From contig CALLZN010000363.1 of assembly GCA_937858895.1 (NCBI GenBank), positions 1 to 57,979 of the forward strand: 57,979 bases of DNA, read 5' to 3'. The notes below the pieces were generated by a model. That model was not told the DNA's origin. It searched no databases and saw only the letters and a program-made list of their open reading frames with translations. Source of the stretch: an uncultured bacterium. Lineage in GTDB: Bacteria; Planctomycetota; UBA1135; GCA-002748355. The translations under genes were made by a program, and so were the position numbers. Numbering within the stretch: the stretch's first letter is position 1; every line of letters begins with the position of its first letter. This document shows positions 2,687 through 56,464 of this stretch, piece by piece.

Positions 2687-3319
2687 ATGGTCAAGAACAA
2701 CGATCCTTCCACTCCGCGACCAACGCTTCGCGGCCGACACGTGCACCTCGTACCTCTCGAGCACGCCCACACCGAAGCCCTCTTCGCCTTGGCGCAGCAC
2801 GAGGACATCTGGCGCTACTTCGCCTACCCACTCGACACCCTCGAAGCGATGCAGCGCTGGGTGACCGAGGCGCTCCGCGACGCCGACGCTCGTGTCGCGC
2901 TCCCCTTTACCCTGTTCGCGAGCGACGGCCAAGGCGACGACGCAGGCGACCACGGGATCATCGCGGGGTCGACGCGCTTCGGCGCCATGGTCCTCGACCA
3001 CGCCCGCGTCGAGATCGGCTGGACCTTCGTGGGACGGGCTTGGCAAAGGACCGCCGTCAACACCGAGGCCAAGCTCCTGCTGCTCGGCTACGCCTTCGAA
3101 GTGCTCGGTTGTCGGCGCGTCGAGCTCAAGACCGACGCCAACAACGCGCGATCGCGCGCGGCCATCCAGCGCCTCGGCGCGAGTGAAGAGGGCACCCTGC
3201 GCAAGCACATGCGCTACCCCGATGGTCGACCGCGCGATACGGTCTACTACTCGATCGTCGATGACGAGTGGCCGAAGGTGCGCGCAGGGCTCGAGGCGCG
3301 GCTCAGTCGCAGCACATAG
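2687..3319 (+). CDS. GNAT family N-acetyltransferase (RimJ/RimL-like)
   Basis: 210 residues from ATG 2687 (MVKNNDPSTP). The fold order matches RimJ/RimL-type acetyltransferases: N-terminal LRGRHVHLVPLEHAH strand-helix, a helix LEAMQRWVTEALRDADA, the beta4 region ARVEIGWTFVGRAWQ, the CoA-proximal helix NTEAKLLLLGYAFEVLG, then RRVELKTDANNARSRAAIQRLGA with the typical asparagine, and EGTLRKHMRYPDG. The family transfers acetyl from acetyl-CoA to protein N-termini or small amines; this subgroup (W-x-N/Q...TEAKLLLL, N-x-RS) is often annotated as a generic acetyltransferase. The frame is open upstream to 2468 but that part shows no domain. Convergent with the metallo-hydrolase downstream (6-base gap). 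Substrate unknown. Confidence 0.85.
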   Translation: MVKNNDPSTPRPTLRGRHVHLVPLEHAHTEALFALAQHEDIWRYFAYPLDTLEAMQRWVTEALRDADARVALPFTLFASDGQGDDAGDHGIIAGSTRFGAMVLDHARVEIGWTFVGRAWQRTAVNTEAKLLLLGYAFEVLGCRRVELKTDANNARSRAAIQRLGASEEGTLRKHMRYPDGRPRDTVYYSIVDDEWPKVRAGLEARLSRST

Positions 3320-3325
3320 TCAACG

Positions 3326-4909
3326 TCAGGCGTCCAGCGCCGTCGCGAGCTTGCGAATCAGCTTGCGGCGCGCTTCGTCGTCCTTGCCGGCGCGCAGCTT
3401 CTCAGCGAGGTCGAGCGTGAAAGCCGCGAACTCGTTGTGCCAATCGCTCTCGAGCATCGCGTCATCGACGCGGTGGGCGACGCGGCCCTGCGACTGCACG
3501 GTGTCGGCGACGAGGTCGAAGGACTCGTCGAAGCGCGGCAAGAAGATCTTCTCCACCGGGAAGCCACGCGCCACGAGGGCATCGCGCATACCGACGCGGC
3601 CTTCGTCCTCACCGTGATTCAGGAAGAGCCCACCGAGCACCGGCGAGCGCTCCATGACCCAATCGACGAGCTCGCTCTGGTCCGCGTGGGCCGAGTAGTT
3701 GCCGATGCGCCGAATCGCGGCGCGCACGACGTAGTCCTTGCCATGGATGCGCACGAGCTTCTTGCCGCTCGTGATGACTTGACCGAGCGTGCCGGGCGCT
3801 TGGTAGCCAACGAAGAGCACGGTGGACTCGGGGCGCCAAATATTATTCTTGAGGTGGTGCTTGATGCGGCCAGCGTCACACATGCCGCTCGCCGAAATGA
3901 TGATCGCGCCCTTCTTGATGTTGTTGATCGCGATGCTCTCCTCGACGCTGCTGACGAGGCGGAAGCGCTTGTCGCGGAAGAGCGCTTTGGCCGGCAAATC
4001 CACGTCCTGGAGGTCGTCCGCATATTTGATGAAGACCTCCGTCGCCTTGTGCGCGAGCGGCGAATCGAGGTATACGGTCGCGTTCTGCAACGACTTCTCG
4101 TGCAAGAGCACGCCGATGTCGTGCAAGAGCTCTTGGCTGCGCTCGACCGCGAAGCTCGGGATCACGACGTTGCCGCCACGCTCGAAGCCATCGATGAGCT
4201 CCTTGCGCAAAGCTGCCCGCCGTGACTCCAGCGTGTAGTCGTCCCGCTCGCGGTTGCCGTAGGTCGACTCGCAAACAACGTAGTCAATACCTTCCGGCGC
4301 GTCGGGCTCGGGATGAAAGGCCTTCTCATCGGGCCCGAGGTCACCCGAGAAGAGCAGGCGCAAACCGGCGTCGGGTGAAGCCTTCTCGAACTGCACCTCG
4401 ACCGACGCCGAGCCGAGCATGTGGCCAGCGTTCCAGTAGCGGAAGCGCGCCCCCGGCATCGGCTCGAACCACTGCTCGTAGTCGACGGTCCGCATGAGCG
4501 AATGCGCGCGCTCGGCGTCCTCGCTGTCGTAGATCGGCTCGACCGGGTCGAGGCCGCGCCGCAAGTTCTTCTCGCTCTGCCGCGCCGCGTCCTGTTCCTG
4601 GATCGCCGCAGAATCGAGCATCATGAACTCGAGCAAGTCAGCGGTCGCCGGCGTCACGAAGATGGGCCCGCGGAAGCCATGCTTGACGAGCTTGGGCACG
4701 AGCCCCGAGTGATCGATGTGGGCGTGCGTGAGGACGACGAAGTCGATGCTCTTCGGATCGAAGGGAAAAGGCTCGGCGTTCAGCGCCTTGACCGTGCGAT
4801 TGCCCTGGAACATCCCGCAGTCGACGAGGAAGCGCTTCCCGTCCGATGCGACGAGCGAACACGAGCCAGTGACCGTACCCGCCGCGCCACAGAATGTCAG
4901 TTGTGCCAT
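3326..4909 (-). CDS. MBL-fold beta-CASP RNA metallo-hydrolase
   Basis: 527 residues from the ATG at 4909 (MAQLTFCGAAGTVTGS), which has a GAGG ribosome site 9 bases upstream; the longer open frame to 5236 overlaps the divergent MNT gene. Zinc motif THAHIDHSG gives H62, H64, D66 and H67; further ligands are in GHMLGSASVE and FSGDLG. The beta-CASP half shows STYGNR, PSFAVERSQELL, ISASGMCDAGRI and NYSAHADQSEL, and the C-terminal histidine block LNHGEDEGR. This is the YsgA/KH-less CPSF-like branch of RNA-processing nucleases (predicted endo- or exoribonuclease), cytoplasmic. Intact, usual length. Its 5' end lies 134 bases from the MntA gene. Confidence 0.92.
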   Translation of the reverse strand: MAQLTFCGAAGTVTGSCSLVASDGKRFLVDCGMFQGNRTVKALNAEPFPFDPKSIDFVVLTHAHIDHSGLVPKLVKHGFRGPIFVTPATADLLEFMMLDSAAIQEQDAARQSEKNLRRGLDPVEPIYDSEDAERAHSLMRTVDYEQWFEPMPGARFRYWNAGHMLGSASVEVQFEKASPDAGLRLLFSGDLGPDEKAFHPEPDAPEGIDYVVCESTYGNRERDDYTLESRRAALRKELIDGFERGGNVVIPSFAVERSQELLHDIGVLLHEKSLQNATVYLDSPLAHKATEVFIKYADDLQDVDLPAKALFRDKRFRLVSSVEESIAINNIKKGAIIISASGMCDAGRIKHHLKNNIWRPESTVLFVGYQAPGTLGQVITSGKKLVRIHGKDYVVRAAIRRIGNYSAHADQSELVDWVMERSPVLGGLFLNHGEDEGRVGMRDALVARGFPVEKIFLPRFDESFDLVADTVQSQGRVAHRVDDAMLESDWHNEFAAFTLDLAEKLRAGKDDEARRKLIRKLATALDA

Positions 4910-5043
4910 GCGTTGGACCTCATGACGAGAACCTCTCGTCGTGTCCTCGAACGATGCAGGAACACCCACTGCAGCGCCACCCCAAGGTCGGCATATTTGC
5001 GGCTCGCTGGCCGAAGGGCAACGCAGCACGGTAGGATGCAAAC

Positions 5044-5487
5044 ATGGTCGCTCCACGGATGCGTCAGCAATTTCCGGATCAGCTCGACGCAGAGTGCCGC
5101 GCTCGCATCCAAGCAGCCCTCGAAGCCGAACCTGGCATTGCCTTCGGCATGCTCTTCGGGTCGCTTGCGCGCGGAACCGCAAGCAAGCACAGCGATCTCG
5201 ACTTAGCTGTCTCGATCCCAGGCATCCTGTCCGCACGCGAGTTGCTGGACCTCCGAGAACGCTTGGAGTCCGCGGCCGGGCGCAAGATTGACTTGTTGCG
5301 CTTCGAAGATGCGCCGGCGAGCATTGCCTACCGAATCTTCAAGGAAGGTATCGTCCTCTCTATGCGCGACCGCGCCACTTTCGTCGAACAGAAGGCCAAG
5401 GCCATCCTCGAGTATTTTGACTGGAAGCCCTTCGAAGACATCCTCGTGCGAGGCGCGTTAAGAGCCGCGCAGGAACGCCGTGGTTGA
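5044..5487 (+). CDS. mntA: MntA-type minimal nucleotidyltransferase (antitoxin)
   Basis: 147 residues, ATG 5044. The pol-beta nucleotidyltransferase motif is G39-S40 followed by ten residues and D51-L-D53 (GSLARGTASKHSDLD), which is the exact GSX10DXD signature of MNT-domain antitoxins; a third acidic residue is expected in KIDLLRF. MntA proteins inactivate their HEPN partner by transferring AMP from ATP onto a tyrosine of the toxin. The gene overlaps the HEPN gene by 8 bases, so the two are translated together, antitoxin first. Family known; the pairing and motif are seen directly. Target tyrosine is inferred (see next gene). Confidence 0.88.
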   Translation: MVAPRMRQQFPDQLDAECRARIQAALEAEPGIAFGMLFGSLARGTASKHSDLDLAVSIPGILSARELLDLRERLESAAGRKIDLLRFEDAPASIAYRIFKEGIVLSMRDRATFVEQKAKAILEYFDWKPFEDILVRGALRAAQERRG

Positions 5488-5911
5488 CCATAAGCTCTTC
5501 GCCAGGAGCCTCGCGGACATTCGATCAGCGCTGGCTCGTATCCGTTCGAAGCTGCCAAGCACCCGTCACGCCTTCCTCGAAGATCAAGACGCTCGAGACA
5601 TCGTCGTCTTGAACCTCTTTGTCGCGTTGCAACACACGATCGCCCTTGCAACACACTGGCTCGCCGAGCTCGGCTTGGACGTGCCGGAGCGGAGCGCTGA
5701 GGTATTTCGAGCGCTCGCGAAGCACCAAATCCTCGACGCAGAATTAGCGGAACGTCTGGCGTCGGCGGCAGGTCTTCGGGACTTGATCGCACACCGCTAT
5801 GGAATGCTCGACTGGGAGCGAATCTACGAGATCGCGGCAACGGAGCTGGACGACCTCGATCTCTATAGCCAGGCCTTGGCAAGGGCGGTCGACGACGCTG
5901 GAAGCCCGTAG
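5480..5911 (+). CDS. hepT: HepT-type HEPN ribonuclease toxin (DUF86)
   Basis: 143 residues from GTG 5480, 8 bases inside the end of mntA. All-helical HEPN domain with the catalytic RX4HXY motif complete: R100-D-L-I-A-H105-R-Y107. In HepT toxins R and H form the RNase site of the dimer and Y is the residue AMPylated by MntA. Helices before it (RDIVVLNLFVALQHTIALATHWLAELG) match the four-helix bundle. Known HepT enzymes cleave the 3' end of tRNA; the substrate here is inferred. Gene order antitoxin-toxin, no third gene. The downstream gene is convergent after only 5 bases, leaving no separate terminator. Confidence 0.88.
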   Translation: MVDHKLFARSLADIRSALARIRSKLPSTRHAFLEDQDARDIVVLNLFVALQHTIALATHWLAELGLDVPERSAEVFRALAKHQILDAELAERLASAAGLRDLIAHRYGMLDWERIYEIAATELDDLDLYSQALARAVDDAGSP

Positions 5912-5916
5912 GGTGC

Positions 5917-7155
5917 TCAGAACCGCAAACGCACCGCGTTCGTCGCCGCGACGCTCTTCATGCTGACCGGGTCGAAGAGCAGGGTCTGCACCCACAAAGA
6001 AAAACCAACGAGTCCCGCATCGGGCACGACTGTCAAGCGGCCGCTCTGCCAGACGCCTTCTTGATCGTTCCGGTGACCAGCTTCACCGCCCTTGACATAG
6101 GTCCCGGTCACGCCAAAGACACCGGCGCCGGTGAACAGCGTCGCGAGGCCGAGGCCTGTCGGATCGACGAGCAGGCCCGCGTCGCCGAGCGCGAGTCGCG
6201 TTGTGGGCAAGGTCATCGACGACGAGACGACGAGCGGCAGCGCGCAGAGACCCTTCGAAGTCTCGTGCTGCACAAAGAGCCCGAAGAAGCCGGCACTCAC
6301 CGCCGAAGCCAGAGCATTGTCGTAAGCACCGGGCCCCTTGTGGGTCTCGATGTTGCGCGGGTCGCTGCGCACGCCTCCTGACGCATCCGAATAAAACTGC
6401 AGCGTCGCCTGGTCGAAGTAGAGCTCGATCGCGAGTTCACCCAGGTTGCTGGGCGCGTTGGTCGTGCCAAAGGGAAGGAGCTTGCGTGTGGCGCTGTCGT
6501 ACGACCCCGAGAAACTGAGGCGCCCACCATCGCGGTGGATCTCGCCGAAGCTCGGCACACACATGAAATTGGGCTGGCCGTCGCCAAGGCGTTGACCGAA
6601 GGGCGCGTAGAGGACCATGGCCCAACCCTGGGGACGCCCCCGCGGATCACGCGCCGCCAAGTCCAGCGGCGTCCGCAGGCGCGGGTCCGGCTGCTGCGGC
6701 CCGAAGCGGAAGTCGAAGTTCTGCACACCAGTGCCGAGCACCTTGTAGCCGCCGAGCTGCAGGACCGTCGTGACCGGATACGTCATGTCGGGCACGTCAT
6801 AGGTCTTGCCTTCGATCGTCACCTCGACCAGCGGGACGAAGGTCACGTCGGGCAGCGTGACGAAGGTCGGCAGCGAACCCGTGTAGCCAGCATCGACCCG
6901 AAACCCGATGCGGAAGCCCGAGATGCGCCACTTGTCGTCGCGCGCCCCGACTTCGACCGGAAAGGCCTTGTAGACGAAGTCGTCGAAGCCGCTGCCCTGC
7001 GCGCTCCGCGACCCGGGAAACTCGACCGGCGCGTCTCGACGATAGGCGTTGTCGAAGTCGAGCCGGCTGTAGGCCAGCTGGGTCGTCTGGGCGCTCGCGG
7101 TCGCGAGCATGACGGCGCCTGAGGCGGCGAGGGCGAGGATCGGAAACGTTGCCAT
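5917..7155 (-). CDS. Secreted protein with C-terminal exported module
   Basis: 412 residues from ATG 7155 (MATFPILALAASGAVMLATASAQ), a signal peptide with likely cleavage at ASA-Q. The body is beta-rich with no enzyme motif recognised; it has stretches such as VTIEGKTYDVPDMTYP and many aromatic-glycine turns. The last 45 residues (VVPDAGLVGFSLWVQTLLFD ... TNAVRLRF) follow the same plan as the end of the small secreted protein at 2126 (PNDTRL ... Q ... TNGVSLRF), so the two share a terminal module. The frame is open upstream to 7524, antisense to lysS, and is not believed. Function unknown; probably exported to periplasm or surface. Confidence 0.75.
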   Translation of the reverse strand: MATFPILALAASGAVMLATASAQTTQLAYSRLDFDNAYRRDAPVEFPGSRSAQGSGFDDFVYKAFPVEVGARDDKWRISGFRIGFRVDAGYTGSLPTFVTLPDVTFVPLVEVTIEGKTYDVPDMTYPVTTVLQLGGYKVLGTGVQNFDFRFGPQQPDPRLRTPLDLAARDPRGRPQGWAMVLYAPFGQRLGDGQPNFMCVPSFGEIHRDGGRLSFSGSYDSATRKLLPFGTTNAPSNLGELAIELYFDQATLQFYSDASGGVRSDPRNIETHKGPGAYDNALASAVSAGFFGLFVQHETSKGLCALPLVVSSSMTLPTTRLALGDAGLLVDPTGLGLATLFTGAGVFGVTGTYVKGGEAGHRNDQEGVWQSGRLTVVPDAGLVGFSLWVQTLLFDPVSMKSVAATNAVRLRF

Positions 7156-12684: not shown

Positions 12685-15411
12685 TCAGCGCACGATGTCG
12701 AGGCGCTGGACGTAGTTCGCATCGTCGACGACGAGCTCCACGCGGTAGCTGCCCTTCGGCACCGGCCGCCGCTGCTGTGCCCGCCGTCCCATCTGGCGCA
12801 CGACCTCGGTGATGCCCGAGCGCTCGGCCCCAGCAGCCCCGCGACGCATGTCCCAGCGCACGACGTGGAGTCCTGCATCCTTGGGCAGAGCGATGCCGAA
12901 AACCTCGGTGCCGGTGACGTCGACGACGCGCAGGCGCGCCTTCTCGGCCCCCTCGGGTAGGAGCGCCGACAGCTCGACGGCGCTCGCGACGGCGCCGACG
13001 TCGGCACGACGCGGCGTGATCGTGTAGCCGCCCGTCGGTCCGGGCGGCATGCGCCGAACCCGGCGAGGCTGCACGACCATGGGACCTGCCTGAGCGGCGG
13101 TCTCGGTCCATTGTTCGAGCGCGCTGACATCGGCGACGAACATGCCGCGGCCGTGGGTCGCTATGACGACTTCGGGCTCGCGGGGGTGGACGACGAGGTC
13201 GTGCACGGCGACGCGCGGTAGCTTCGCACCCATGCGCACCCATGCCCCGCCGCGGGTCGTCGAAGCATAGACGCCGAGCTCGGTGCCGACGAAAAGCAGG
13301 TCTTCGTTGCGCGGGTCCTCGCGGACCACGTTGACCGGCTCGTCGCGCGGCAAGTCACCCTCGATCGATCGGAAGCTGAGTCCGTAGTCATCGGTCACGA
13401 AGACGAGGGGCTCGAAGCGGTCTTCGCGATAGCCGGTGACGCTCACGTAGCAGCGGCCCGCATCGAAGTGGCTCGCCTCGACCCGGCTGATCCAGAGACC
13501 TTGGGCGGACGCCGGTAGCGCGTGATCGAGCTTGCGCCAGGTCTTGCCACCGTCGGGCGTCATCCACAAGAGCCCGTCGTCGGTGCCGACCCAAACATAG
13601 CCGGGCCGCAGCGGACTCTCGCTGATCGTCGTGATCGTGCAGTGTGGCACGTTGCCGGCGAGCTTGTCGGCGTCGCGCGTCGTCAAGTCATCGCTGACAG
13701 CCTTCCACGTGTCGCCTCGGTCGTAACTGCGGAAGAGCTTGTTTCCGCCGAACCAAATCATGCGCGGGTTGTGCGGCGAGATGAGGATCGGCGACATCCA
13801 ATTGAAGCGGTACCCGGCTTCGCCGCGCGCCGGTCGCGGCTGGATGCCCTTGCGCTCCATCGTCCTCAAGTCCGTGCGCCCGAGCCCGCCGAACTGGGAC
13901 TCCGAGTAGACGATGTTCGGGTCGGTCGGATCGACGCAAACGTAGAAACCATCGCCGCCCGAGACCTTGAAGGTGTCTTCGATGCGCAGTCCCTTGGACG
14001 TCGGGCCGGCGCTCGGCATCCCCCAGGACCCGTTGTCCTGCGTGCCGCCATAGATGCGGTAGGGATCCGCCATGTCGACGCCAACGGCGTAGAACTGGAC
14101 GACCGGCAGGTTCTCGAAGTGCGACCACGTTGCCCCCGCATCGAAGGACTCGGCGAGTCCGCCGTCGTTGCCGAGCAGCAAGTGGCCGCTGTCGGCCGGA
14201 TCGACCCACAGGGCGTGGTGGTCGCTGTGCAAGGTCGGCGCGCCGTTCGGGCGGAAGGTCTTGCCGCCGTCGACCGAAACATGGACCGGCACCGAGAGGA
14301 TCCAGACCTTGTTCTCGTCGCGGGGGTCGACGCGAATTTGACCGTAGTAGTACGCGGGCGAACCACCGACGGGACGCGCGTTGGTCTTGGACCAGGTCTT
14401 GCCGGCATCGTCCGAGCGATAGACCTCGCCGCCGACCGTTGCGGGCGCCTGCGCGCGGGCCGCGCCCTGCGGCGCCACTAGCTCCTGGGCGTCCGGGGCC
14501 TCGGCTTCATCGCCGCCCTCGGTGCGCGCCCTTTGAGTCGGAGCCTTCGACGGGTTCTCGTTCTCGACGGTCAAGTAACAGACGCCGGGCTTCGAGGCCG
14601 CGAAGGCGATGCCGATCCGGCCGATCTCGCCGCCCGGAAGCGCCGTGACGCGCGCCCACGTCGTTCCACCGTCCTCGCTGCGCCACAGCCCCGAACCGGG
14701 CCCCTGCCCGTCGAAGTGCCAGGCACGCCGGCGCCGCTCGTAGGTCGCCGCGAGCAAGACTTGGCTATTACCGGGCTGGAAGGCGACATCGACGACGCCC
14801 ACGTCTTTTTGTGCTTCGCCATCGAGGCCGAGGACCCGCTGCCAGGTCTTGCCGCCGTCGGTCGTGCGATAGAGCCCACGCTCTTCGTTGGGCGAATAGA
14901 GGTGGCCGAGCGCCGCGACGAAGACACGCTGCCCATCGCTCGGATCGACGATGATGCGTCCGATGTGGTGGCTGTCGCCGAGGCCGACGTTCGCCCAGGT
15001 CTTGCCGGCGTCGACCGACTTGTAGACCCCGCTCCCCCAGTAGGAAGAGCGCTGGTTGTTCGCCTCGCCGGTCCCGATCCACAAGACCTTCGGATCCGAC
15101 GGGTCGATGGCGATGTCGCCGATCGACGTCGTCGCGTGGGAGTCGAAGATCGCCTCGAAGGACAGGCCGCGGTTGCTCGTTCGGAAGAGACCGCCCGATG
15201 CCGAAGCGACGTACCACGTCGACGCATCCTGCGGATGCACCTCGATGTCCACGATGCGTCCCGAGAAGTGCACCGGGCCGACTTCGCGCCACGCCGCATC
15301 CTTGATGAGCGAATCACGACTCGAGAAGACCGTGATCTGGGTCGCAGCCACGGATGCGAACGCGAGCGAAGCCGCGAGCACCCGAAACTCCATGCTTGTC
15401 ATGAGCTTCAT
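12685..15411 (-). CDS. Secreted BNR/Asp-box beta-propeller (sortilin/VPS10-like)
   Basis: 908 residues. Start ATG 15411 (MKLMTSMEFRVLAASLAFASVAATQ) gives a signal peptide and overlaps the stop of the upstream gene as ATGA. About eleven Asp-box motifs S/T-x-D-x-G-x-T-W are visible, for instance SVDAGKTW, TTDGGKTW, SEDGGTTW, SYDRGDTW and TPDGGKTW, each following an IxVDPxDxxxVW strand; this is the ten-bladed sortilin/VPS10-like propeller. A linker rich in Glu and Ala sits near residues 305-335. The C-terminal 110 residues form a separate beta domain (KGSYRVELVVDD). Many annotated as glycosyl hydrolase, but no catalytic residues are seen. Paralogue of the next gene. Confidence 0.85.
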   Translation of the reverse strand: MKLMTSMEFRVLAASLAFASVAATQITVFSSRDSLIKDAAWREVGPVHFSGRIVDIEVHPQDASTWYVASASGGLFRTSNRGLSFEAIFDSHATTSIGDIAIDPSDPKVLWIGTGEANNQRSSYWGSGVYKSVDAGKTWANVGLGDSHHIGRIIVDPSDGQRVFVAALGHLYSPNEERGLYRTTDGGKTWQRVLGLDGEAQKDVGVVDVAFQPGNSQVLLAATYERRRRAWHFDGQGPGSGLWRSEDGGTTWARVTALPGGEIGRIGIAFAASKPGVCYLTVENENPSKAPTQRARTEGGDEAEAPDAQELVAPQGAARAQAPATVGGEVYRSDDAGKTWSKTNARPVGGSPAYYYGQIRVDPRDENKVWILSVPVHVSVDGGKTFRPNGAPTLHSDHHALWVDPADSGHLLLGNDGGLAESFDAGATWSHFENLPVVQFYAVGVDMADPYRIYGGTQDNGSWGMPSAGPTSKGLRIEDTFKVSGGDGFYVCVDPTDPNIVYSESQFGGLGRTDLRTMERKGIQPRPARGEAGYRFNWMSPILISPHNPRMIWFGGNKLFRSYDRGDTWKAVSDDLTTRDADKLAGNVPHCTITTISESPLRPGYVWVGTDDGLLWMTPDGGKTWRKLDHALPASAQGLWISRVEASHFDAGRCYVSVTGYREDRFEPLVFVTDDYGLSFRSIEGDLPRDEPVNVVREDPRNEDLLFVGTELGVYASTTRGGAWVRMGAKLPRVAVHDLVVHPREPEVVIATHGRGMFVADVSALEQWTETAAQAGPMVVQPRRVRRMPPGPTGGYTITPRRADVGAVASAVELSALLPEGAEKARLRVVDVTGTEVFGIALPKDAGLHVVRWDMRRGAAGAERSGITEVVRQMGRRAQQRRPVPKGSYRVELVVDDANYVQRLDIVR

Positions 15412-18400
15412 CGGATCGAGCCTCCTGTGCTCGCGTTTTCGTCGATCTCGTCCGTTTCGATGCCACCGCCTTCGCCGATGCCCGGCGCGCGTGGCCATGC
15501 AATGTCGAGCGGCTCTTCGTGGTCCACGACGTCGAAGGCGTGGGTCACCGTCTCTTCACCGACCCGGAGCGTCACCGCGTAGCGACCGGCCGCTGCTCGC
15601 CGGCCTCCTCGCGCTACGCCGCCACGTGCGCCTGCGCCGCCGGGGCGACCCGCCGACTGCTCGCGCAGCCCCCAGTCGACTCGATGCAGACCAGCTCGCT
15701 GACTCCCATCAGCCTTGAACACGGTCTTGCCCAAGATGTCGGTCACGACGATCTCGACCTTTTCCTTGGTATTGACACCAATGTGATAATGGAACTCGGC
15801 CCGCTCTGGCGGATTCTCGAGGCGGAAGTATCGATGCCCTTGACGAGCCACGCTGCGGCGGGCGAAGCGCGTCACAGTCCCTGGCTGGACCAACATATGG
15901 GCTGCGCTGCGGTCCTTGTTCGTCAACTGACGCAGCGGACGGATGTCGAGCACCCAAACCCCACGTCCGTGCGACGCGATGATCAAGTGTTGGTCGCGGT
16001 CTTGCTGGTCGAAGTCGAGCACGGCGACCGAGGGAAAGCGCTCGTCGAAGCGCTTCCAAGTCACGCCGCGGTCCAGACTGATCCACAGTCCCATCTCGCA
16101 GCCCAGGTAAAGCAGGTCCGGATTGACGTTGTCGTCACGGACGCAGCGAGCCGAGCCGGCCTCGGGAGGCAAGTTGCTGACCAAGGACTTCCAGGTCGCA
16201 CCGAAGTCCTCGGTAACGAAGACATGCGGAGCGCGATCGCCACTGCGGTGACCGTCGACCGCAACGTAGGCACGACCATCGGCGTGCCCGCTCGCGTGCA
16301 CAGAGCCGATCCACATCGGCTTCTTGCCCGGCAACATGGCCGCAACCTGCTGCGTGCAGTCGTCCCACGCCTTGCCGTCATCCTGCGTCGACCAGAGTCG
16401 TCCGTCGTCGGTGCCGGCCCAGAGGATGCCCGGCTTGCGCGGCGACTCGCCGATGCTCGAGAGGCTCGGCGGCGTCGAGCGCTCTTCTCCCTGGGGCACC
16501 TCACTGATGAGGACCGGGCTGATCGCGGTCGCGTTGCGGCCGCGGTCCGGCGACTTGTAGAGCTTGCTACCACCGTAGTACATCGTCTTCGCGTTGAAGT
16601 GCGAGAGGATGAACGGCGTGTTCCAATTCCAGTTGCGATCGCGCAGCTTGTTGACCCGGCCTCGCTCGCCATTGACGACGTTGACCCAGCCCATGTTGCC
16701 GCCCTGGCTCTCGTAGTAGACGACGTTCGGATCCTCGGGATCGACGCGGCAAACGAAGCCGTCACCGCTGCCAACCTTGAACGCATCGGCGTTCGTGATG
16801 CCCTCGGTCCGCAACGTGGCCGACGGGGAACCCCAGCTACCGTTGTCCTGGTAACCCGAGTAAACCCAGTAGGGCTGCTTGTTGTCCGCGACGGCGTGGT
16901 AGGCCTGTCCGATGTTTAGGTTCTCGAAGGTCTCCCACGTCCGGCACTGGTCGTAGGTGATGTTGACGCCACCGTCACAGCCGAGGATCAAATGCTTGCC
17001 ATTCCGCGGATGAATCCACAGCGCGTGATAGTCGACGTGCACGTTGGCCATCGTGATCTCGCGTGAACTCGACCGGAAGACTTCACCACCATCGAAGCTC
17101 CAGTGAAATTGAATGCCGAGGACGTAGATATTCTTGTTGTCACTCGGGTCGACGCGGATCTGCGAGAAATAGTAGGGCCGCGGATTGAGCGAGTTGATGC
17201 GCTCCCATGTCTCGCCACGGTCCTTCGACAGGTAGATGCCGCCGCACTGGTAGCCCTCGGGCCCTTGGGACTTTTGGCGATTCTCGACCTGGCCGCCGAT
17301 GCGATCGGCGAAAGGAGTTCTCGCCCCCGCGCCGCCGCCGCCTTGCCCTTGGCGCCGATCACCGAAGGTGAGCTCCACGCGCAGGACCTTGCCTTCGCGC
17401 AAGACCGCGACTTTTTGTTTGTCATTGGCGCGCTGCTCACCGAGGACGGCGAGCAAGTCGGCGTACGACGAGGTGCCTTCGTCACCGATCGAGAGAACGA
17501 CGTCTCCGTCCTTCAAACCGGCTGCGGCAGCAGGGCCATCCTCGGTCACCGAGCCGAGCTTCGCGCCGCCGGCCGCGTCGCTGCCGTCCTGCCCGATGCC
17601 CATGATCGCGGTCCCGGGCTCGCCGGGCTCGAGGGCCGGAGCGCCTTCGGGACGCGCGCCGATCTTCTCGGTCTCGATCAGCGCATAGATGTGTGAGGGG
17701 TCCTTACGATAGATGTCGAAGGACACGCGGCCGATCTGAACCGTGGGCAAGCCCTTGCTGAGCTTCTTCCATTTCGTACCGCCATCGACGCTCTTGTAGA
17801 TGCCCGACCCAGGGCCCCAACGCTTCAAAGGATGGTTGCCGTCGAAGGCATCCCGCTGGCGTTCGTACATCGCCGCGTAGACGATCGACGGGTCTTCGGG
17901 ATCGAGGATGACGTCTGTTGCGCCGGTCTTGTCATCGACAGCGAGCACGAGCTCCCATGTCTCGCCGGCGTCGAGGCTGCGATAGAGGCCGCGCTCGGCA
18001 TTCGGAGCCCAGAGGTCACCGCAGGCAGCGACAAAGACGCGCCGCGGGTCTTCGGGGTCGACGACGATGCGACCAATGTGGCGGGTCTTGTCGAGGCCCT
18101 TGTGCTTCCAAGTCTTGCCGCCGTCGGCGCTGTAGTAAACGCCGTTGCCCCAAGACGTAGAGTTGCGGTTGTTCGCTTCGCCGGTGCCGATCCAGATGTG
18201 GTCGCTGTTCATCGGATCGATGGCAATGTCACCGATCGACATCACGACTTCGTTCTGGAACTGCGGTGTGAACGTTGTGCCGTTGTTCACGGTCTTCCAC
18301 AGCCCGCCCGACGCGGTCGCGACATAGAACTTGGATGGATTGCGCTCGTCGACTGCGAGGTCGACGACGCGGCCACCCATGGACGCGGGGCCGATTTCGC

Positions 18401-18650
18401 GCAAGGAGAGGGCACTCGTGTCGAGGGCCGGCGCGAGCCGCGGCGCTTCTTGGGCGGCGGCGACGGGCCGACTGTCCTGGGCACGACCGAGCGGGACCAA
18501 GGCTCCGAACGCGATGATGCAGAGGCCTCGCGCGTCGAACCACGGATGGCGTGTGCGTGAGGGGGACGTGGCGACCGTTCGGCGGGCGGCACGCGGACGT
18601 GACCCGGTCAGACGAGATGAACCGGATACGTCGGGAGGAACGTAGAGCAT
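15408..18650 (-). CDS. Secreted BNR propeller with inserted PDZ domain
   Basis: 1080 residues from ATG 18650. A long basic leader precedes the hydrophobic segment GLCIIAFGALVPLG ending RAQD (about residues 43-58), typical of an extended signal peptide. Eleven Asp-boxes (SADGGKTW, SLDAGETW, SKDRGETW, TEDFGATW, SLDRGVTW and others) form the same propeller as the downstream paralogue. Between blades, at about residues 345-430, lies a PDZ domain: GxIxxGxDGPAAAAGLKDGDVVLSIG and a final VLREGKVLRVELTF. The C-terminal domain has GRYAVTLRVGEETVTHAFDV. Stop and next start overlap by 4 bases, so both propellers are made together. Likely periplasmic or surface; the PDZ suggests it grips peptide ends. 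Confidence 0.85.
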   Translation of the reverse strand: MLYVPPDVSGSSRLTGSRPRAARRTVATSPSRTRHPWFDARGLCIIAFGALVPLGRAQDSRPVAAAQEAPRLAPALDTSALSLREIGPASMGGRVVDLAVDERNPSKFYVATASGGLWKTVNNGTTFTPQFQNEVVMSIGDIAIDPMNSDHIWIGTGEANNRNSTSWGNGVYYSADGGKTWKHKGLDKTRHIGRIVVDPEDPRRVFVAACGDLWAPNAERGLYRSLDAGETWELVLAVDDKTGATDVILDPEDPSIVYAAMYERQRDAFDGNHPLKRWGPGSGIYKSVDGGTKWKKLSKGLPTVQIGRVSFDIYRKDPSHIYALIETEKIGARPEGAPALEPGEPGTAIMGIGQDGSDAAGGAKLGSVTEDGPAAAAGLKDGDVVLSIGDEGTSSYADLLAVLGEQRANDKQKVAVLREGKVLRVELTFGDRRQGQGGGGAGARTPFADRIGGQVENRQKSQGPEGYQCGGIYLSKDRGETWERINSLNPRPYYFSQIRVDPSDNKNIYVLGIQFHWSFDGGEVFRSSSREITMANVHVDYHALWIHPRNGKHLILGCDGGVNITYDQCRTWETFENLNIGQAYHAVADNKQPYWVYSGYQDNGSWGSPSATLRTEGITNADAFKVGSGDGFVCRVDPEDPNVVYYESQGGNMGWVNVVNGERGRVNKLRDRNWNWNTPFILSHFNAKTMYYGGSKLYKSPDRGRNATAISPVLISEVPQGEERSTPPSLSSIGESPRKPGILWAGTDDGRLWSTQDDGKAWDDCTQQVAAMLPGKKPMWIGSVHASGHADGRAYVAVDGHRSGDRAPHVFVTEDFGATWKSLVSNLPPEAGSARCVRDDNVNPDLLYLGCEMGLWISLDRGVTWKRFDERFPSVAVLDFDQQDRDQHLIIASHGRGVWVLDIRPLRQLTNKDRSAAHMLVQPGTVTRFARRSVARQGHRYFRLENPPERAEFHYHIGVNTKEKVEIVVTDILGKTVFKADGSQRAGLHRVDWGLREQSAGRPGGAGARGGVARGGRRAAAGRYAVTLRVGEETVTHAFDVVDHEEPLDIAWPRAPGIGEGGGIETDEIDENASTGGSIR

Positions 18651-18818
18651 CGAGGCTTTGCCTTCCTTCAGGCCTTCTGGGGGTGGGGCCGGCCCGATCC
18701 GGTCCCCGCAATGGGCGGAACATACGCCCAACGGGTCGCTGGTGTTGGCGCCGGGCTCGGCGTTCTCGCCAGGGCTTGCTATGGTCCGGGCCTCCTTCTG
18801 CGCGAACTGACCGAAACG

Positions 18819-20717
18819 ATGCGCCGCCAAGACCTCTATCTTAGTGTTCTGACTAGCCTGCTTGCGTCCATCGCGCTCTTGCCATCGACCGCTGGCGCGC
18901 AAGACCAAGGACCGAGGACCCCTTCGAAGGTCGCCCCGGCGCGGGCGCCAGCCTTCGAGGGTGCGCAGCGCCACGTGCTGCGTCCCCGTCCCGAGCTGGA
19001 GGGCCAGCTCGATCCGCGAAACTTCTGGCAGGACCGCCTCATCGTCAAGTTCGCCGAGGGGATCGCGATGCGCCTCTCTCGCGCGCGCAGGTCTCCTGCG
19101 CGCGACTTGCAGATCGAAGCGCCGCAGCCGCGCCGGGCCGAACTCGAGGTCCTCGGTGATCGCGAAGTCGAGCCGCTCTTCTCGCGCCCGGCGAAGGACC
19201 TGGAGCGGGAACGACGTGCGCTTCGTGCCAGCCGACCCGATGCCGTGTTGGCCGACCTCGCCAATTACTATCGTGTCTTCACGGCCGGACGCGAGGACAC
19301 GCTGGCGCTCATGGCAGCGCTTGCTCGTGAGGAAGTCGTCGAGGTCGCCTACCCCGAGTTCCATCCACGAGCCATCGTCCCTGCTCAAAGCGGGACACGG
19401 CAGAGCCCCGACATCGTGACCGCGATTCGCACGCCCAGTTTCGAGGCGCGCCAAGGCTACCTCGCTTCTGCCCCGCAGGGGCTCGGCATGCTCGATGCCT
19501 CGGGCTTGCTCGGGAGCCAAGGACATGACGGCCAAGTCGTCGTGCAGATCGAGGCAGCATGGACCTTCGACCACGAAGATCTGCCGCAGCTGCGCCTCGA
19601 CCGCGTGCTCGGGCCGACGAACTTCGGCACTTGGGACATCCAAGCTTGGCGTGACCATGGGACGGCTGCCGTCGGCATTCTCGCCGCCGCGCGCGACGAC
19701 AAGGGCTTTCGTGGCATCGTGCCCGAAGCGCGGCACTACGTGTCGAGCGTCGTCTTCGGCAACGCGGATGCGGTGAGCCGAGCGACCCAGATCGCTGGGC
19801 CAGGCGATGTCTTCACGTCCTCGCTCGTCCACGCCGTCGCCTTGCAGAACCAGGGCTTCCACGCGCCCTTTGACTACCCGCAGGATGCCTACGACGCCGT
19901 TCGCATTGCGGTGGCCAAGGGCATCGTGTTCACGGTCGCGGCTGGCAACACGGGCAACGATCTCGCGAACCCGCTGCTCTACGGCTACCGCTACGCTCCG
20001 TCGGCCACCCCATCGGGTGCGTGGATCGTCGGCGCGAGCTTCCAAGGCGGCACGAAGAAAGTCTCGTGGAGCAACTACGGCGACGTCGTCCGCTTCAGTG
20101 CTTGGGGCGCTGGAGTCACTGCGCCGGCTTACGGGACGCTGTTCCGCGATCCGCTTCGACTTGGCGTGCGCGACTACACGGACATCTTTGGTGGCACTTC
20201 GGCGGCGAGCCCGCAGGTCGCTGGCGCTGCAGCGGCGATCCAGTCGACGGCTTGGATGATGAAACGCCGGACCCTCGATGTCGAAGCCCTCGCACGAGCG
20301 CTCGAACGGCATGGCACATGGATCAGCGGACGCGTCGGACCCCGGCCGGACATCGCGGGCACCCTCGTTGGCCTCGGCCTCGTAGACGGCCTCATGACGC
20401 GCGGAGACGTCGAGATCGGCGGTGACCTCGACCTGACGCTCGACCTGCGCCAGAACGAGTTCTTCGCGGTCTTCGGGTCCTCCAGGCCGATGTCACTCGC
20501 CTTGCCGGGCTTCTCCTTCCCGCTCGCGCTCGACCCGGCGCAGACCTTCGTCCTCGCGGTTGGCACGACGCAGAAGGCGGAGCCGTTCACGATCCACACG
20601 CCTCTTGCTGTCCCGCAACGATATTCCGGCGCGCGGCTCTACTTCCAGGCCATGCGCCTGGAGCGTCAGGCTCAGAACAGCGACTTCACGAATCCTGTGA
20701 GCGCGTGGTTGCGCTGA
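18819..20717 (+). CDS. Secreted S8 (subtilisin-like) protease with altered Asp motif
   Basis: 632 residues from ATG 18819; signal peptide MRRQDLYLSVLTSLLASIAL ending TAGAQ. A propeptide-like region (about 60-200, LIVKFAEGIAM ... VEVAYPEFHP) precedes the catalytic domain. His280 (DHGTAAVGILAA), Asn377 (VAAGNTG) and Ser461 (GGTSAASPQVAGAA) match the S8 family. At the Asp strand, however, the sequence reads VVVQIEAAWTFDHEDL: the residue aligned with the catalytic Asp of VAVIDTG-type motifs is Glu245. A few S8 subgroups with an IE-x-x-W-x-x-x-HEDL motif exist, as far as I recall. The C-terminal 130 residues form a beta domain. Activity is therefore uncertain. Confidence 0.88.
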   Translation: MRRQDLYLSVLTSLLASIALLPSTAGAQDQGPRTPSKVAPARAPAFEGAQRHVLRPRPELEGQLDPRNFWQDRLIVKFAEGIAMRLSRARRSPARDLQIEAPQPRRAELEVLGDREVEPLFSRPAKDLERERRALRASRPDAVLADLANYYRVFTAGREDTLALMAALAREEVVEVAYPEFHPRAIVPAQSGTRQSPDIVTAIRTPSFEARQGYLASAPQGLGMLDASGLLGSQGHDGQVVVQIEAAWTFDHEDLPQLRLDRVLGPTNFGTWDIQAWRDHGTAAVGILAAARDDKGFRGIVPEARHYVSSVVFGNADAVSRATQIAGPGDVFTSSLVHAVALQNQGFHAPFDYPQDAYDAVRIAVAKGIVFTVAAGNTGNDLANPLLYGYRYAPSATPSGAWIVGASFQGGTKKVSWSNYGDVVRFSAWGAGVTAPAYGTLFRDPLRLGVRDYTDIFGGTSAASPQVAGAAAAIQSTAWMMKRRTLDVEALARALERHGTWISGRVGPRPDIAGTLVGLGLVDGLMTRGDVEIGGDLDLTLDLRQNEFFAVFGSSRPMSLALPGFSFPLALDPAQTFVLAVGTTQKAEPFTIHTPLAVPQRYSGARLYFQAMRLERQAQNSDFTNPVSAWLR

Positions 20718-52873: not shown

Positions 52874-55800
52874 TCAGCGGAGGTCGCGACCTGCGACTCG
52901 GAACTGCCACTGACTCGAAGCGCCGTCCTTGACCTGCCGCTCCAACTCGACGCTACCGAGCGAGAAGGCCTCGAGGCGGACGCGATACGTGCCAGGTTGC
53001 AAGCGCCCAAGGTCGAACTCAACAGCCAAGTCTCCGCCTGGACCGAGTTCGGGCAGGGTCCAACGACCGGCACGCACGAAGCGCCCACGGTCATCGTAGA
53101 GTGCAAAAGCGATCGACTGCTTCGCAAGCGCTGGGTCCGGCTTGCCCTCGATGCGGACAACGACCGAGACTCCGTTGCGCAGCCTGACGGTAGTCGAGGT
53201 GTCTTCGCGGCCTATCACGAGAATGTCCGAGACTTCGGCGGCGTGGCCTTCAGCGTTGATGACGACACGGTAGGCGCCACTCGAGAGCCCCCCAATCGCA
53301 GCACGACCACGGTCATCGGCGAGCACGGCCTCGAAGGCACGCATGGGCCGGCCCGCGACATCGAGCAAGCGCACGCGCGCGCCGCGGGCAGGACTGCCGT
53401 CCGAGTTCTTGACGCTCACTTCGAGTTCGGCCGCCTCCTCGACGACGATCTCGACTTCGTCGAGGCTCTGCGCTTCGCCGAGGCGAATGCCGGTGCGACG
53501 TCCGGCTCGCGGTCGATCCCGCACGTCGATCTGTCGAGCCGTGAGCCCATACTCGCCGGCCATGAGGCCCTCGAAGACGAAGCCACCTTCGGCGTCCGTC
53601 ATCGTCAAGCCGTTGCCAAGGTCAAAGCTCGCGTCGACGCTGGCCTCACGCAACTCATCGACGCGCGACAAGCGCAAGAAAGCAAAAGGCACGGCGACAC
53701 CATCGCTCGTGACGACACGGCCCCGGATGCGACCCGCAGGCAGCTCCAGGTCGATGCGCTGCTCGCGCTGCTCGGCCTCGACCCGCACCGTCGCACCATC
53801 CGAGCTACCGGCATCGAAGAGCGAAGCGCGCACACGCGTGCGGTAGGCACCAGGTGCAAGGGCATCGAAGCGGTACGCCCCCGCCTTGATGGTCGCGAAG
53901 GAGCGGCCCTCGGTACCGATCGCTTCGAACTCGACGATGCCGTCTTCGAGGGGACGCCCCCCCATCGTGACGCGACCAAGGACCCGCCGCGCAGATGCAG
54001 CCTCCCCATCCACCTGACTCGCGATCAGCTCGAAGGTCGCTCGGCCCGCCGGCGGCACATGCACCTGCGACACGACCATCGCGCGCATGCTCTCACTGAT
54101 GAGCTTGCCGATGTCAGGCCCCTTCCCGAAGCGGGAGCCTTGCATCGACTCCCGGCCGACCTTGTCGAAGAACGAAGAGGGCAGCGCCTCGACTCGGTAG
54201 TCACCAGCCGCGATCGCTTCGAAGCGCACATTGCCGTTCTCGTCCGTCTTGCGCGACAACTGAACGCCACGCGCCATCGACTTCAACGACACGAGCCAAT
54301 CGCTGACCGGACGCTGTTGATCGTCGACGACGCGGCCCTCGACGATCGAACCGCGATCCAGGACGAGCTTGATCGGCCCGGTAACCTTGCCCTTCTCCAC
54401 GACGACGGGCTCGCTGCGCAAGGGCGCGTATCCTTCCTTCTCGACGTGCAAGCGCGTCTTGCGCGCGGGCAGCCCCACGAGCTCGAAAGCACCGTCCGCT
54501 TCGGTCGTGACGCCGCGATCGCCGCGCATCCACGCCATCATCTTCATGTCCGCCATGCCGCCCTTCGAGACGCGCACGGTTGCGCCTTCGATCGCCTTGT
54601 CGTCGACGTCGACGACGTTGCCGCGGAGGGAAGACGGTGGCGCGAGAGCGACGACTCCGACATCGACTTGCTCTGTTGCGGACGTGATCTTGACGCGCAC
54701 GGTCTGCGGCGCGCGGTCGGCGGCTTCGATCTGCAGCGTGTGATCGCCGAGGGGAAGCTGAGTCAGCGTAAAACCCCCGCCGGTCGCTTGTTCTTGCCGA
54801 CCGCGTTCGGACTCGAAGAAGACCATGGCACGCGACACGGCGCGGACCTTGAAGTCCTCGACGGCCTGGCCGTCCTCTTCGCGCACGACGCGCCCACGAA
54901 CGGAGCCGAGCTGCTGAAGCTCGATGACGACGTCATCGGCCCCGATCTCGGCCACGAGAGCCGCGGGAGAGTGGCCGCTCTTCGATGCAACGAGGCGCAC
55001 GCTCTCGTCGCCTTCGAGCCCGCGCAACTCGAAGCGCCCTTCCTCGTCGGTCGTTACCGCTCGCTCGAGCGAGGCGGCCACCATCGCGGCCTCGGGCACG
55101 AAGGAAGCGACATCGAAGCCCATGACCTTCTGCCCCAAGAGCGGCGCAGCACCAACCTTTGCGCCGACGACCGGAGCCTCACCTTCATCGATCACACGGC
55201 CGCGCACGGACTTGCCGTGATCGAGCACGAACTCACGCACGACGCTGAGACCGGCGTCGAGCCTCACTTCGGCCTCGAAGGGAACGAAGCCCTGAGCGAC
55301 GATCTTGATCGCGCAAGGCCCCGGCGGAAGGGAATCCAAGACGACCCGGCCGTCATCCGCTGAGCGACCGCGCGCTGTCCTGGACTCGATCTCGTCGACT
55401 CGCAGCGCCAGGGCGTCATTGGATATCGCTTGAACGGCGATCCTCGCGCCAGACACAGGCTGTCGCTCATCCGAGAGAACGGTGACTTCGAGCTTGGCCG
55501 CCTTCGTCAGTTTGACGCGTGCGACGCGGGAATAGCCCGGCGTCAGATTCACCATGGTGCTCGCGGGACCGTGGCCATCGGCGCGAACGTCGACCTCGAC
55601 GCTCCCCGCTCGGTCGATCGCGTTGAGCTTCGCGATGCCGCTGGCGTTCGTCCGCGCCTCGATCTTCCGCATCAGGCGCTCGAGTTGACGAAAGTCGAAC
55701 ATGCCCGTCTCGAAGTTGACGAAGGCCATCGGGTTGAAGGGCGTCGACAAGCGCACGCGCGCTCCGTCGACAGCGTGACCATTCGCGTCTTCGACGACGA

Positions 55801-56464
55801 CGACGAGGGCCGAAGCCAACTCGCACGGGATGTCGCCAAGTTCGACGACACGCTGGTCGCTGCCTCGAGGCCTCCCAGGCTCCGTCTGCGTCGCCGGCTC
55901 CGGCTCCGGCAAGGCCTCGATGCGGACATCGTCCGTGAGCCTCGCGATTCCGTGCTGGAGCTCGAGCTCGATCGCTCCCCGGAACGAAGTCGAGACCTCG
56001 AAGCTGCCGTCGTCGGAGATCGCCGCGCTCGCGAGGCGCGTCGGTTCGCGCCCGAGTTCGCGCAAAGCCCCCGAGCGCATGGAGTTCTCCATGTCGTTCC
56101 ACGCGCTGCGCATCACCTCGAACATCGCCGCCTCGTAGTCGGGGCCGGACTCGAGGATGGCGACCGTGCCTTCGCTGAGTTTGACGGGTGCGCGAAGGCG
56201 GCCGCGAATCACTCGCTGGTCTGCGGTCTTGCCGACGCGCGCTTCGTCGCCAAGCGTGACTGCTTTGGAGAGGCGTCGCGCATTGCCTTCGACTTCGATT
56301 GACGCTCCGCCCGCATCTTCGATCGCGATGTCGCCGCCTTGCGCTGGCGTCGTGCTCGTGTCGCTGACACTGGGCCGGCCCTCGTCCTGCTTCGATCCAA
56401 AGAGCCACCATGCCAAGAAAGCAAACAGCGCGAAGGTCAAGAAGGCGATCGTGATTCGGCGCAT
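52874..56464 (-). CDS. Large CarboxypepD_reg-repeat envelope protein
   Basis: 1196 residues, ATG 56464. One N-terminal hydrophobic helix (RITIAFLTFALFAFLAWWLF), either signal or anchor, then a Ser/Thr/Ala-rich linker. From about residue 210 on, at least eight carboxypeptidase-regulatory-like/Ig folds are repeated, each with a pattern V-x-G-R-V-V-D-x-x-x-x-P-V-x-G-A-x-V and D-x-x-G-x-F-x-L/F-x-G-L (SVRGRVIDEGEAPVVGAKV, DEEGRFELRGLEGDE, TEADGAFELVGLPARK, TDENGNVRFEAIAAGDY, TDAEGGFVFEGLMAGEY). No peptidase domain. Such proteins are surface or periplasmic scaffolds. The 40-base gap suggests co-transcription with the NuoN-like gene. Confidence 0.8.
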   Translation of the reverse strand: MRRITIAFLTFALFAFLAWWLFGSKQDEGRPSVSDTSTTPAQGGDIAIEDAGGASIEVEGNARRLSKAVTLGDEARVGKTADQRVIRGRLRAPVKLSEGTVAILESGPDYEAAMFEVMRSAWNDMENSMRSGALRELGREPTRLASAAISDDGSFEVSTSFRGAIELELQHGIARLTDDVRIEALPEPEPATQTEPGRPRGSDQRVVELGDIPCELASALVVVVEDANGHAVDGARVRLSTPFNPMAFVNFETGMFDFRQLERLMRKIEARTNASGIAKLNAIDRAGSVEVDVRADGHGPASTMVNLTPGYSRVARVKLTKAAKLEVTVLSDERQPVSGARIAVQAISNDALALRVDEIESRTARGRSADDGRVVLDSLPPGPCAIKIVAQGFVPFEAEVRLDAGLSVVREFVLDHGKSVRGRVIDEGEAPVVGAKVGAAPLLGQKVMGFDVASFVPEAAMVAASLERAVTTDEEGRFELRGLEGDESVRLVASKSGHSPAALVAEIGADDVVIELQQLGSVRGRVVREEDGQAVEDFKVRAVSRAMVFFESERGRQEQATGGGFTLTQLPLGDHTLQIEAADRAPQTVRVKITSATEQVDVGVVALAPPSSLRGNVVDVDDKAIEGATVRVSKGGMADMKMMAWMRGDRGVTTEADGAFELVGLPARKTRLHVEKEGYAPLRSEPVVVEKGKVTGPIKLVLDRGSIVEGRVVDDQQRPVSDWLVSLKSMARGVQLSRKTDENGNVRFEAIAAGDYRVEALPSSFFDKVGRESMQGSRFGKGPDIGKLISESMRAMVVSQVHVPPAGRATFELIASQVDGEAASARRVLGRVTMGGRPLEDGIVEFEAIGTEGRSFATIKAGAYRFDALAPGAYRTRVRASLFDAGSSDGATVRVEAEQREQRIDLELPAGRIRGRVVTSDGVAVPFAFLRLSRVDELREASVDASFDLGNGLTMTDAEGGFVFEGLMAGEYGLTARQIDVRDRPRAGRRTGIRLGEAQSLDEVEIVVEEAAELEVSVKNSDGSPARGARVRLLDVAGRPMRAFEAVLADDRGRAAIGGLSSGAYRVVINAEGHAAEVSDILVIGREDTSTTVRLRNGVSVVVRIEGKPDPALAKQSIAFALYDDRGRFVRAGRWTLPELGPGGDLAVEFDLGRLQPGTYRVRLEAFSLGSVELERQVKDGASSQWQFRVAGRDLR

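Follow-up and report, generated by a model that had tools for sequence, protein, structure and literature searches.

The question raised by this locus was whether a subtilisin-like protease could work with Glu at the position of its catalytic Asp. The gene lies in a planctomycete contig of 57,979 nucleotides (the window, i.e., the whole stretch of DNA analysed). Most subtilases use Asp as the third residue of the triad, and the preliminary description of this DNA had left the choice between an S8 subgroup with Glu in the triad and an inactive protein that binds instead. In our assessment, the gene very probably encodes a secreted subtilase zymogen of the E-H-S branch, with the triad Glu245-His280-Ser461 and Asn377 in the oxyanion hole. 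The features of the gene were as follows (family rows are those of the 117 domains described below).

18819..20717, + strand: E-H-S type subtilase (S8 fold), 632 aa (ORF, Pfam, homologues)
18819..18899, + strand: putative signal peptide, aa 1-27 (MRRQ..LTSLLASIALLPSTAGA), inferred by eye from the sequence
19035..19355, + strand: putative N-terminal prodomain, about aa 73-179, strands and helices mixed (model blocks with pLDDT 48-75)
19431..20333, + strand: catalytic domain, aa 205-505 (Pfam, profile alignment, AlphaFold2 model)
19551..19553, + strand: GAG codon of E245, at the position of subtilisin BPN' Asp32 (alignments)
19560..19562, + strand: W248, family signature (W in 96/117 family rows; mostly V/I in canonical subtilases)
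19572..19583, + strand: HEDL, aa 252-255, counterpart of canonical HPDL (alignments)
19656..19658, + strand: H280, predicted catalytic His (117/117 family rows)
19665..19667, + strand: A283 (His+3), a small residue in the E family and His in most canonical subtilases (alignment)
19947..19949, + strand: N377, predicted oxyanion Asn (117/117 family rows)
20103..20105, + strand: W429, aligned with the Pro of APG in canonical subtilases (alignment; W in 108/116 covered family rows)
20199..20201, + strand: S461, predicted nucleophile (116/116 covered family rows)
20415..20714, + strand: C-terminal beta-rich domain, about aa 533-632 (model strands, block pLDDT mostly 59-78)

The frame, coordinates and numbering given in the preliminary description for E245, H280, N377 and S461 were all correct. 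The start at 18819 was preferred over an upstream ATG at 18711 because a relative with 64% identity (L096) aligned from residue 1. Pfam analysis gave a match to Peptidase_S8 (PF00082) at 1.5e-15, with 57.8 bits against a cut-off of 21.8; this alignment started at profile position 49, corresponding to protein residues 273-485, so the acid motif lay outside it. The His of the HGT motif, the Asn of AAGN and the Ser of GTS that mark S8 proteases were present as H280, N377 and S461, but the catalytic Asp of the first motif was replaced by Glu245 in the context V-V-Q-I-E245-A-A-W-T-F-D-H-E-D-L. With this replacement the protein falls in the E-H-S branch while remaining in the S8 fold family. The NCBIfam search of the protein returned sub-threshold matches only, and assignment to the T7SS mycosins (TIGR03921) was rejected at 50.5 bits against 278.75 required.

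The 632-aa protein is probably secreted. The Pfam search gave no match for the putative prodomain region (about aa 73-179) or for the C-terminal domain (about aa 533-632). A C-terminal part of about aa 515-625 (window about 20361-20693; 1501-1833 in L005) matched, with 28-33% identity, loci in planctomycete genomes whose similarity was confined to this part (e.g., G000:C121, G044:C243, G026:C14 and G036:C23); Pfam provided no name for it in either the window or L005.

Based on this layout, the zymogen would comprise a signal peptide, a prodomain that would be processed, the S8 catalytic domain and the beta-rich C-terminal domain, in that order. By analogy with subtilisin, Glu245 would take over the place and the job of Asp32, orienting His280 and stabilising its charge. 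His280 would then activate Ser461, Asn377 would serve in the oxyanion hole, and proteolysis would follow the ordinary subtilisin route.

Homologues were searched in 151 genomes (the window's own and 150 relatives), of which 53 had matches. In all, 86 places matched, two of which were second pieces of one gene, and 72 genes including that of the window were aligned. The alignment with S8 relatives, which the preliminary description had proposed as a check, showed E at the 245 column in 72/72 homologues from related genomes, and in all of these proteins the columns 280, 377 and 461 were H, N and S, respectively. When a profile of 41 relatives was aligned with solved structures, the Glu fell on BPN' Asp32 (vrvadiEaswtldHeDl vs VKVAVIDSGIDSSHPDL).

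A wider set held 117 distinct domains that were counted as family because they scored 100 bits or more, a cut set after a gap between 78 and 125 bits had been seen; the other 59 rows had 78 bits or less. Among the 117 domains, the acid was E in 112, D in four and Q in one, a share of E that was somewhat favoured by the search, since the homologue queries carried Glu and the family was split from the canonical rows by a profile built from Glu-bearing rows. His and Asn were present in 117/117 and Ser in 116/116 covered rows. The canonical lower-scoring rows had D at the acid column in 43/43 covered, the 16 of the 59 rows without a residue at this column being excluded from the count. Two strong matches absent from the 72-gene alignment (L211 and L212) were joined to the wider set, and both had E. 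Out of ten weak matches, L004 and L005 were dropped, three others were excluded, and L214-L218 (46-78 bits) were included; the acid was covered in two of these five and was D in both. On these comparisons, E245 is more than chance and not a one-off, and the suggestion of an S8 subgroup that uses Glu in its triad was well supported (E in 112/117).

Four of the five family rows without E had D at the same column (L119, L121, L209 and L210), as expected of a carboxylate site. The fifth, L208 (Paenibacillus phage phiERICV, about 3007-3885), was the sole family row without a carboxylate there; it had Gln for Glu and a small insertion in the motif, with His, Asn and Ser intact, and was annotated as 'GlcNAc-binding protein A'. 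The Gln of L208 means that the family has at least one possibly inactive copy.

An AlphaFold2 model of the catalytic domain (11 sequences) had a mean pLDDT of 79.2 and a pTM of 0.85. E245 was model residue 53, the final residue of strand 48-53, and model residues 244-263, just ahead of the Ser, had pLDDT below 50. The predicted fold was that of a subtilase on structural comparison, the best match being the StmPr1 protease (9grg; Z 29.7, rmsd 2.9 over 275 residues). A full-length model (8 sequences) had a mean pLDDT of 49.4 in the catalytic domain and was too poor for use there. The dN/dS against L096 was 0.09 in the catalytic domain, where dS was near saturation at 1.66, 0.24 in the N-terminal region and 0.37 in the C-terminal region. 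The catalytic domain is thus under purifying selection relative to L096.

The best surviving alternative, which we consider improbable, is that the change from Asp to Glu marks a pseudoprotease that binds its substrate without cleaving it. Loss of the canonical Asp would be expected to lower activity strongly, as in subtilisin mutants, the acid column of one relative (L208) holds Q, and inactive subtilases do exist, CspC being named a subtilisin-like pseudoprotease in the abstract of PMC6199464. However, the complete conservation of His, Asn and covered Ser in the family, the low dN/dS of the catalytic domain, the presence of an N-terminal region at the position of a prodomain and the active E-H-S precedent SprP, described below, all argue against it. 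The inactive binder of the preliminary description was therefore not favoured, given the His, Ser and oxyanion Asn kept across the subgroup and the activity of SprP. By analogy, the protein is probably active as a protease.

A second alternative, which we regard as very improbable, is that the register is shifted and another Asp is the acid, either D251 or the Asp found two residues before the Glu (-2) in the DxE motif of relatives. The preliminary description had named D251 as an Asp that might occupy the catalytic site, but this column was poorly conserved, with D in only 35/72 proteins and G in 19. H252 and D254 were conserved in 72/72, and the D254 column had D in 104, N in four and E in three of 111 family rows; D254, however, is the counterpart of the Asp in canonical HPDL. 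The only serious competitor of E245 is the -2 Asp, which was present in 75/117 family rows and in 13/13 plasmid-borne relatives, and a fungal group is described by a DxExG motif in PMC5567314.

At -2, the 72 proteins mostly had D (34), M (15), H (11) or Q (9), and the 117 family rows had D (75), M (15), H (13), Q (9), V (2), E (1), N (1) or I (1); the canonical rows had V (27), I (14), A (1) or L (1). The window protein had Q at this position. All 42 family rows lacking Asp at -2 (one with Glu there) had an acidic residue at the 245 column, E in 38 and D in four; the 38 rows with E were E/H/N/S, and the four with D were D/H/N with Ser in the three covered. The comparison thus clarifies the DxE motif, in which E is the retained residue and D is not, and points to Glu245 as the acid. 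This natural separation of the two acids, with the upstream Asp dispensable, may be new.

A sequencing or assembly error that changed an Asp codon to one for Glu would take a single base (GAC/GAT to GAG) in this fragmented assembly of 449 contigs, but E in 72/72 sequences from separate genomes and contigs ruled this out.

Glu-bearing subtilases are not new as such. Siezen, Renckens and Boekhorst reportedly described 'E-H-S' subtilases, with Glu replacing the catalytic Asp, in 2007. The definition, as quoted in passages of PMC3937732 that cite the 2007 work, is that His and Ser are retained and an equivalent Glu stands for the catalytic Asp, and the window protein showed this combination. Since the branch was already known, though little studied, the protein is an unusual member and not a new kind of enzyme, and its importance was rated moderate to low because the basic idea was known.

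According to the same passages (PMC3937732), SprP (PA1242) of Pseudomonas aeruginosa has the putative triad E262-H299-S499 and cleaves skim milk and Suc-AAPF-pNA, and its S499A variant was without activity. By this published description, SprP resembled the window protein in its S8 domain with Glu-His-Ser, predicted export signal and C-terminal extension, the Glu being residue 262 there and 245 here. SprP differed in its N-terminal DUF, which the passages report as nearly Pseudomonas-specific. The acid-His and His-Ser spacings set SprP apart from neither the family nor the canonical group in a listing made up of rows other than that of the window. No mutant of the Glu was found in the literature search, which included the passages on SprP and had most subscription journals outside its coverage.

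The conserved domain cd04843 (Peptidases_S8_11) was also considered. Passages of PMC3188533 assign Paenibacillus larvae proteins to it, and those of PMC5567314 describe a fungal group mapping to it by the DxExG motif. Compared by motif alone, the family was similar in that D-x-E was present in 75/117 rows, but the window protein, with Q-I-E-A-A-W, lacked the D of the motif and did not carry DxExG.

The preliminary description had drawn a parallel with sedolisins (S53), which was inexact. Sedolisins have a related fold and Glu among their catalytic residues, the triad being given as Glu, Asp and Ser in PMC9549277. Their triad is without a catalytic His, whereas the window family kept the H280 column in 117/117 rows. 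In sedolisins, the Glu occupies the place of the His base, and Glu/Asp lie on the helix carrying the His of S8 enzymes; here, by alignment, the Glu replaces the Asp. A strict sedolisin-type mechanism was set aside on the retained His, the S53 signature not being present. As a whole, then, the earlier interpretation stood in its Glu-triad subgroup, while the sedolisin parallel was inexact and the inactive binder was disfavoured.

Canonical D-H-S subtilisins (BPN', intracellular subtilisin 7xr8 and StmPr1 9grg) shared with the window protein the fold, the His, the Ser, the oxyanion Asn and the HxDL motif. Apart from the acid, which is Asp in these enzymes, four columns differed: -2 and +3 (usually V/I in canonical proteins; usually D/M/H/Q and W, respectively, in the E family), His+3 (usually His vs A/S/G) and the APG Pro (usually Pro vs W). 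In BPN' numbering, the four co-varying changes were V/I to D/M/H/Q at 30, V/I to W at 35, His to Ala/Ser/Gly at 67 and Pro to Trp at 201, positions that we take to lie near the acid. The +3 residue in the family was W in 96, F in nine, Y in six and another residue in six (n = 117). At His+3, the family had A (98), S (12), G (5), C (1) and R (1), and the canonical rows had H in 36/52 covered; the APG Pro column was W in 108/116 covered family rows vs P in 47/52 covered canonical rows. These correlated replacements alongside Glu may be new.

The coupling was loose. L209 (Sodalis phage phiSG1) and L210 (a Sodalis praecaptivus plasmid), which had Asp as the acid and His at -2, retained the Trp of the family and its small residue following the His, and Trp was absent in 7/112 Glu rows. 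A tree of 92 rows, with the acid region omitted, separated 66 family rows from 26 canonical rows (SH-aLRT 99) and required at least four state changes. When the E and Q rows were constrained to one group, the tree was slightly better (p-AU 0.635), and the idea that Glu reverted to Asp was accordingly unsupported. Because the Glu clade was one branch and the D-bearing rows could not be placed, the correlated replacements may be a single inherited event and not repeated coupling. We tentatively put forward, at somewhat short of an even chance, that the E-H-S type is a re-packed active site that accommodates the longer Glu, not a simple swap, and that the planctomycete clade shows the -2 Asp to be accessory. 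If the re-packing is true, the branch could have its own pH or substrate profile. The conserved and broad Glu branch, with its natural D and Q variants, offers a ready test set for the role of the third residue.

The 117 family domains came from six bacterial phyla, Haloferax and phages. The genome contig collection yielded seven loci, of which the closest five (L096-L100) were from Planctomycetota MAGs; the Streptomyces and Anaerolineae records also came from this collection. Profile search of Planctomycetota found Glu members in at least 17/149 genomes (16 strong and L120), and L119 and L121 were in-between bearers of D. Glu members were found in at least 6/198 Actinomycetota genomes and at least 3/101 Chloroflexota genomes, each count including the centre genome of its draw; the tallies are lower bounds, with candidates scored in part in many genomes. 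The Streptomyces member L133 was the same place as L101.

In the window's own genome, there were 21 S8 matches. The acid was readable in 13, with three E (the window gene, C94 and C65) and ten D; for the other eight, the motif script gave no clear acid, and they stand outside this count. The planctomycete relative L098 had two E-type subtilase genes in tandem, with open frames at 3383-5269 and 4932-7076.

Among annotated phage records, four matched, namely L208 with Q, L209 with D and two others that were the same Sodalis phage. In viral contigs, three tblastn scans with protein or alignment queries found no relative. A degenerate DNA pattern picked out 19 stretches of viral contigs, one of which (L177) encoded a family member, and a further alignment scan gave four loci, three with canonical D and one partial. 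Fourteen plasmid records matched, and 13/13 of those read were E/H/N/S. Their hosts were Haloferax, Nostoc, Paenibacillus, a Bacillaceae strain, Bradyrhizobium, Paracoccus, Paraglaciecola, Mycetohabitans, Paraburkholderia, Serratia, Arsenophonus, Proteus and Nocardia. Where listed, the plasmid genes were annotated as 'S8 family peptidase', 'S8 family serine peptidase' or 'subtilase family protein'.

The protease gene was adjoined upstream by one further feature.

15408..18560, - strand: divergent neighbour, Sortilin-Vps10/BNR protein with PDZ insert (Pfam)

Of the orthologous loci, four (L096-L099) had enough sequence upstream to judge, and all four carried a divergent sortilin/Vps10-type gene next to the protease, the two genes being about 2 kb apart in L097; L100 had too little upstream sequence and was excluded from this count. 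A counterpart of the Lhr helicase gene that follows the protease in the window was not seen at those loci within the downstream sequence covered, about 1.8-3.6 kb. Nine more distant relatives or paralogues (L221-L227, L229 and L230) showed no sortilin-like gene next to them, and this neighbour may therefore be either a partner specific to the clade or no more than an inherited order of genes. The conserved divergent neighbour may be new.

A second, tandem Sortilin-Vps10/BNR protein was encoded at window 12688-15498 (-). An antisense ORF of 1634 aa at window 15408-20312 (-) spanned the protease gene and is probably a high-GC artefact that extends the sortilin-like gene. Elsewhere in the window, an open frame of 1240 aa without a Pfam match lay on the strand opposite to 52877-56464 (-), which encoded a protein with nine CarboxypepD_reg stretches.
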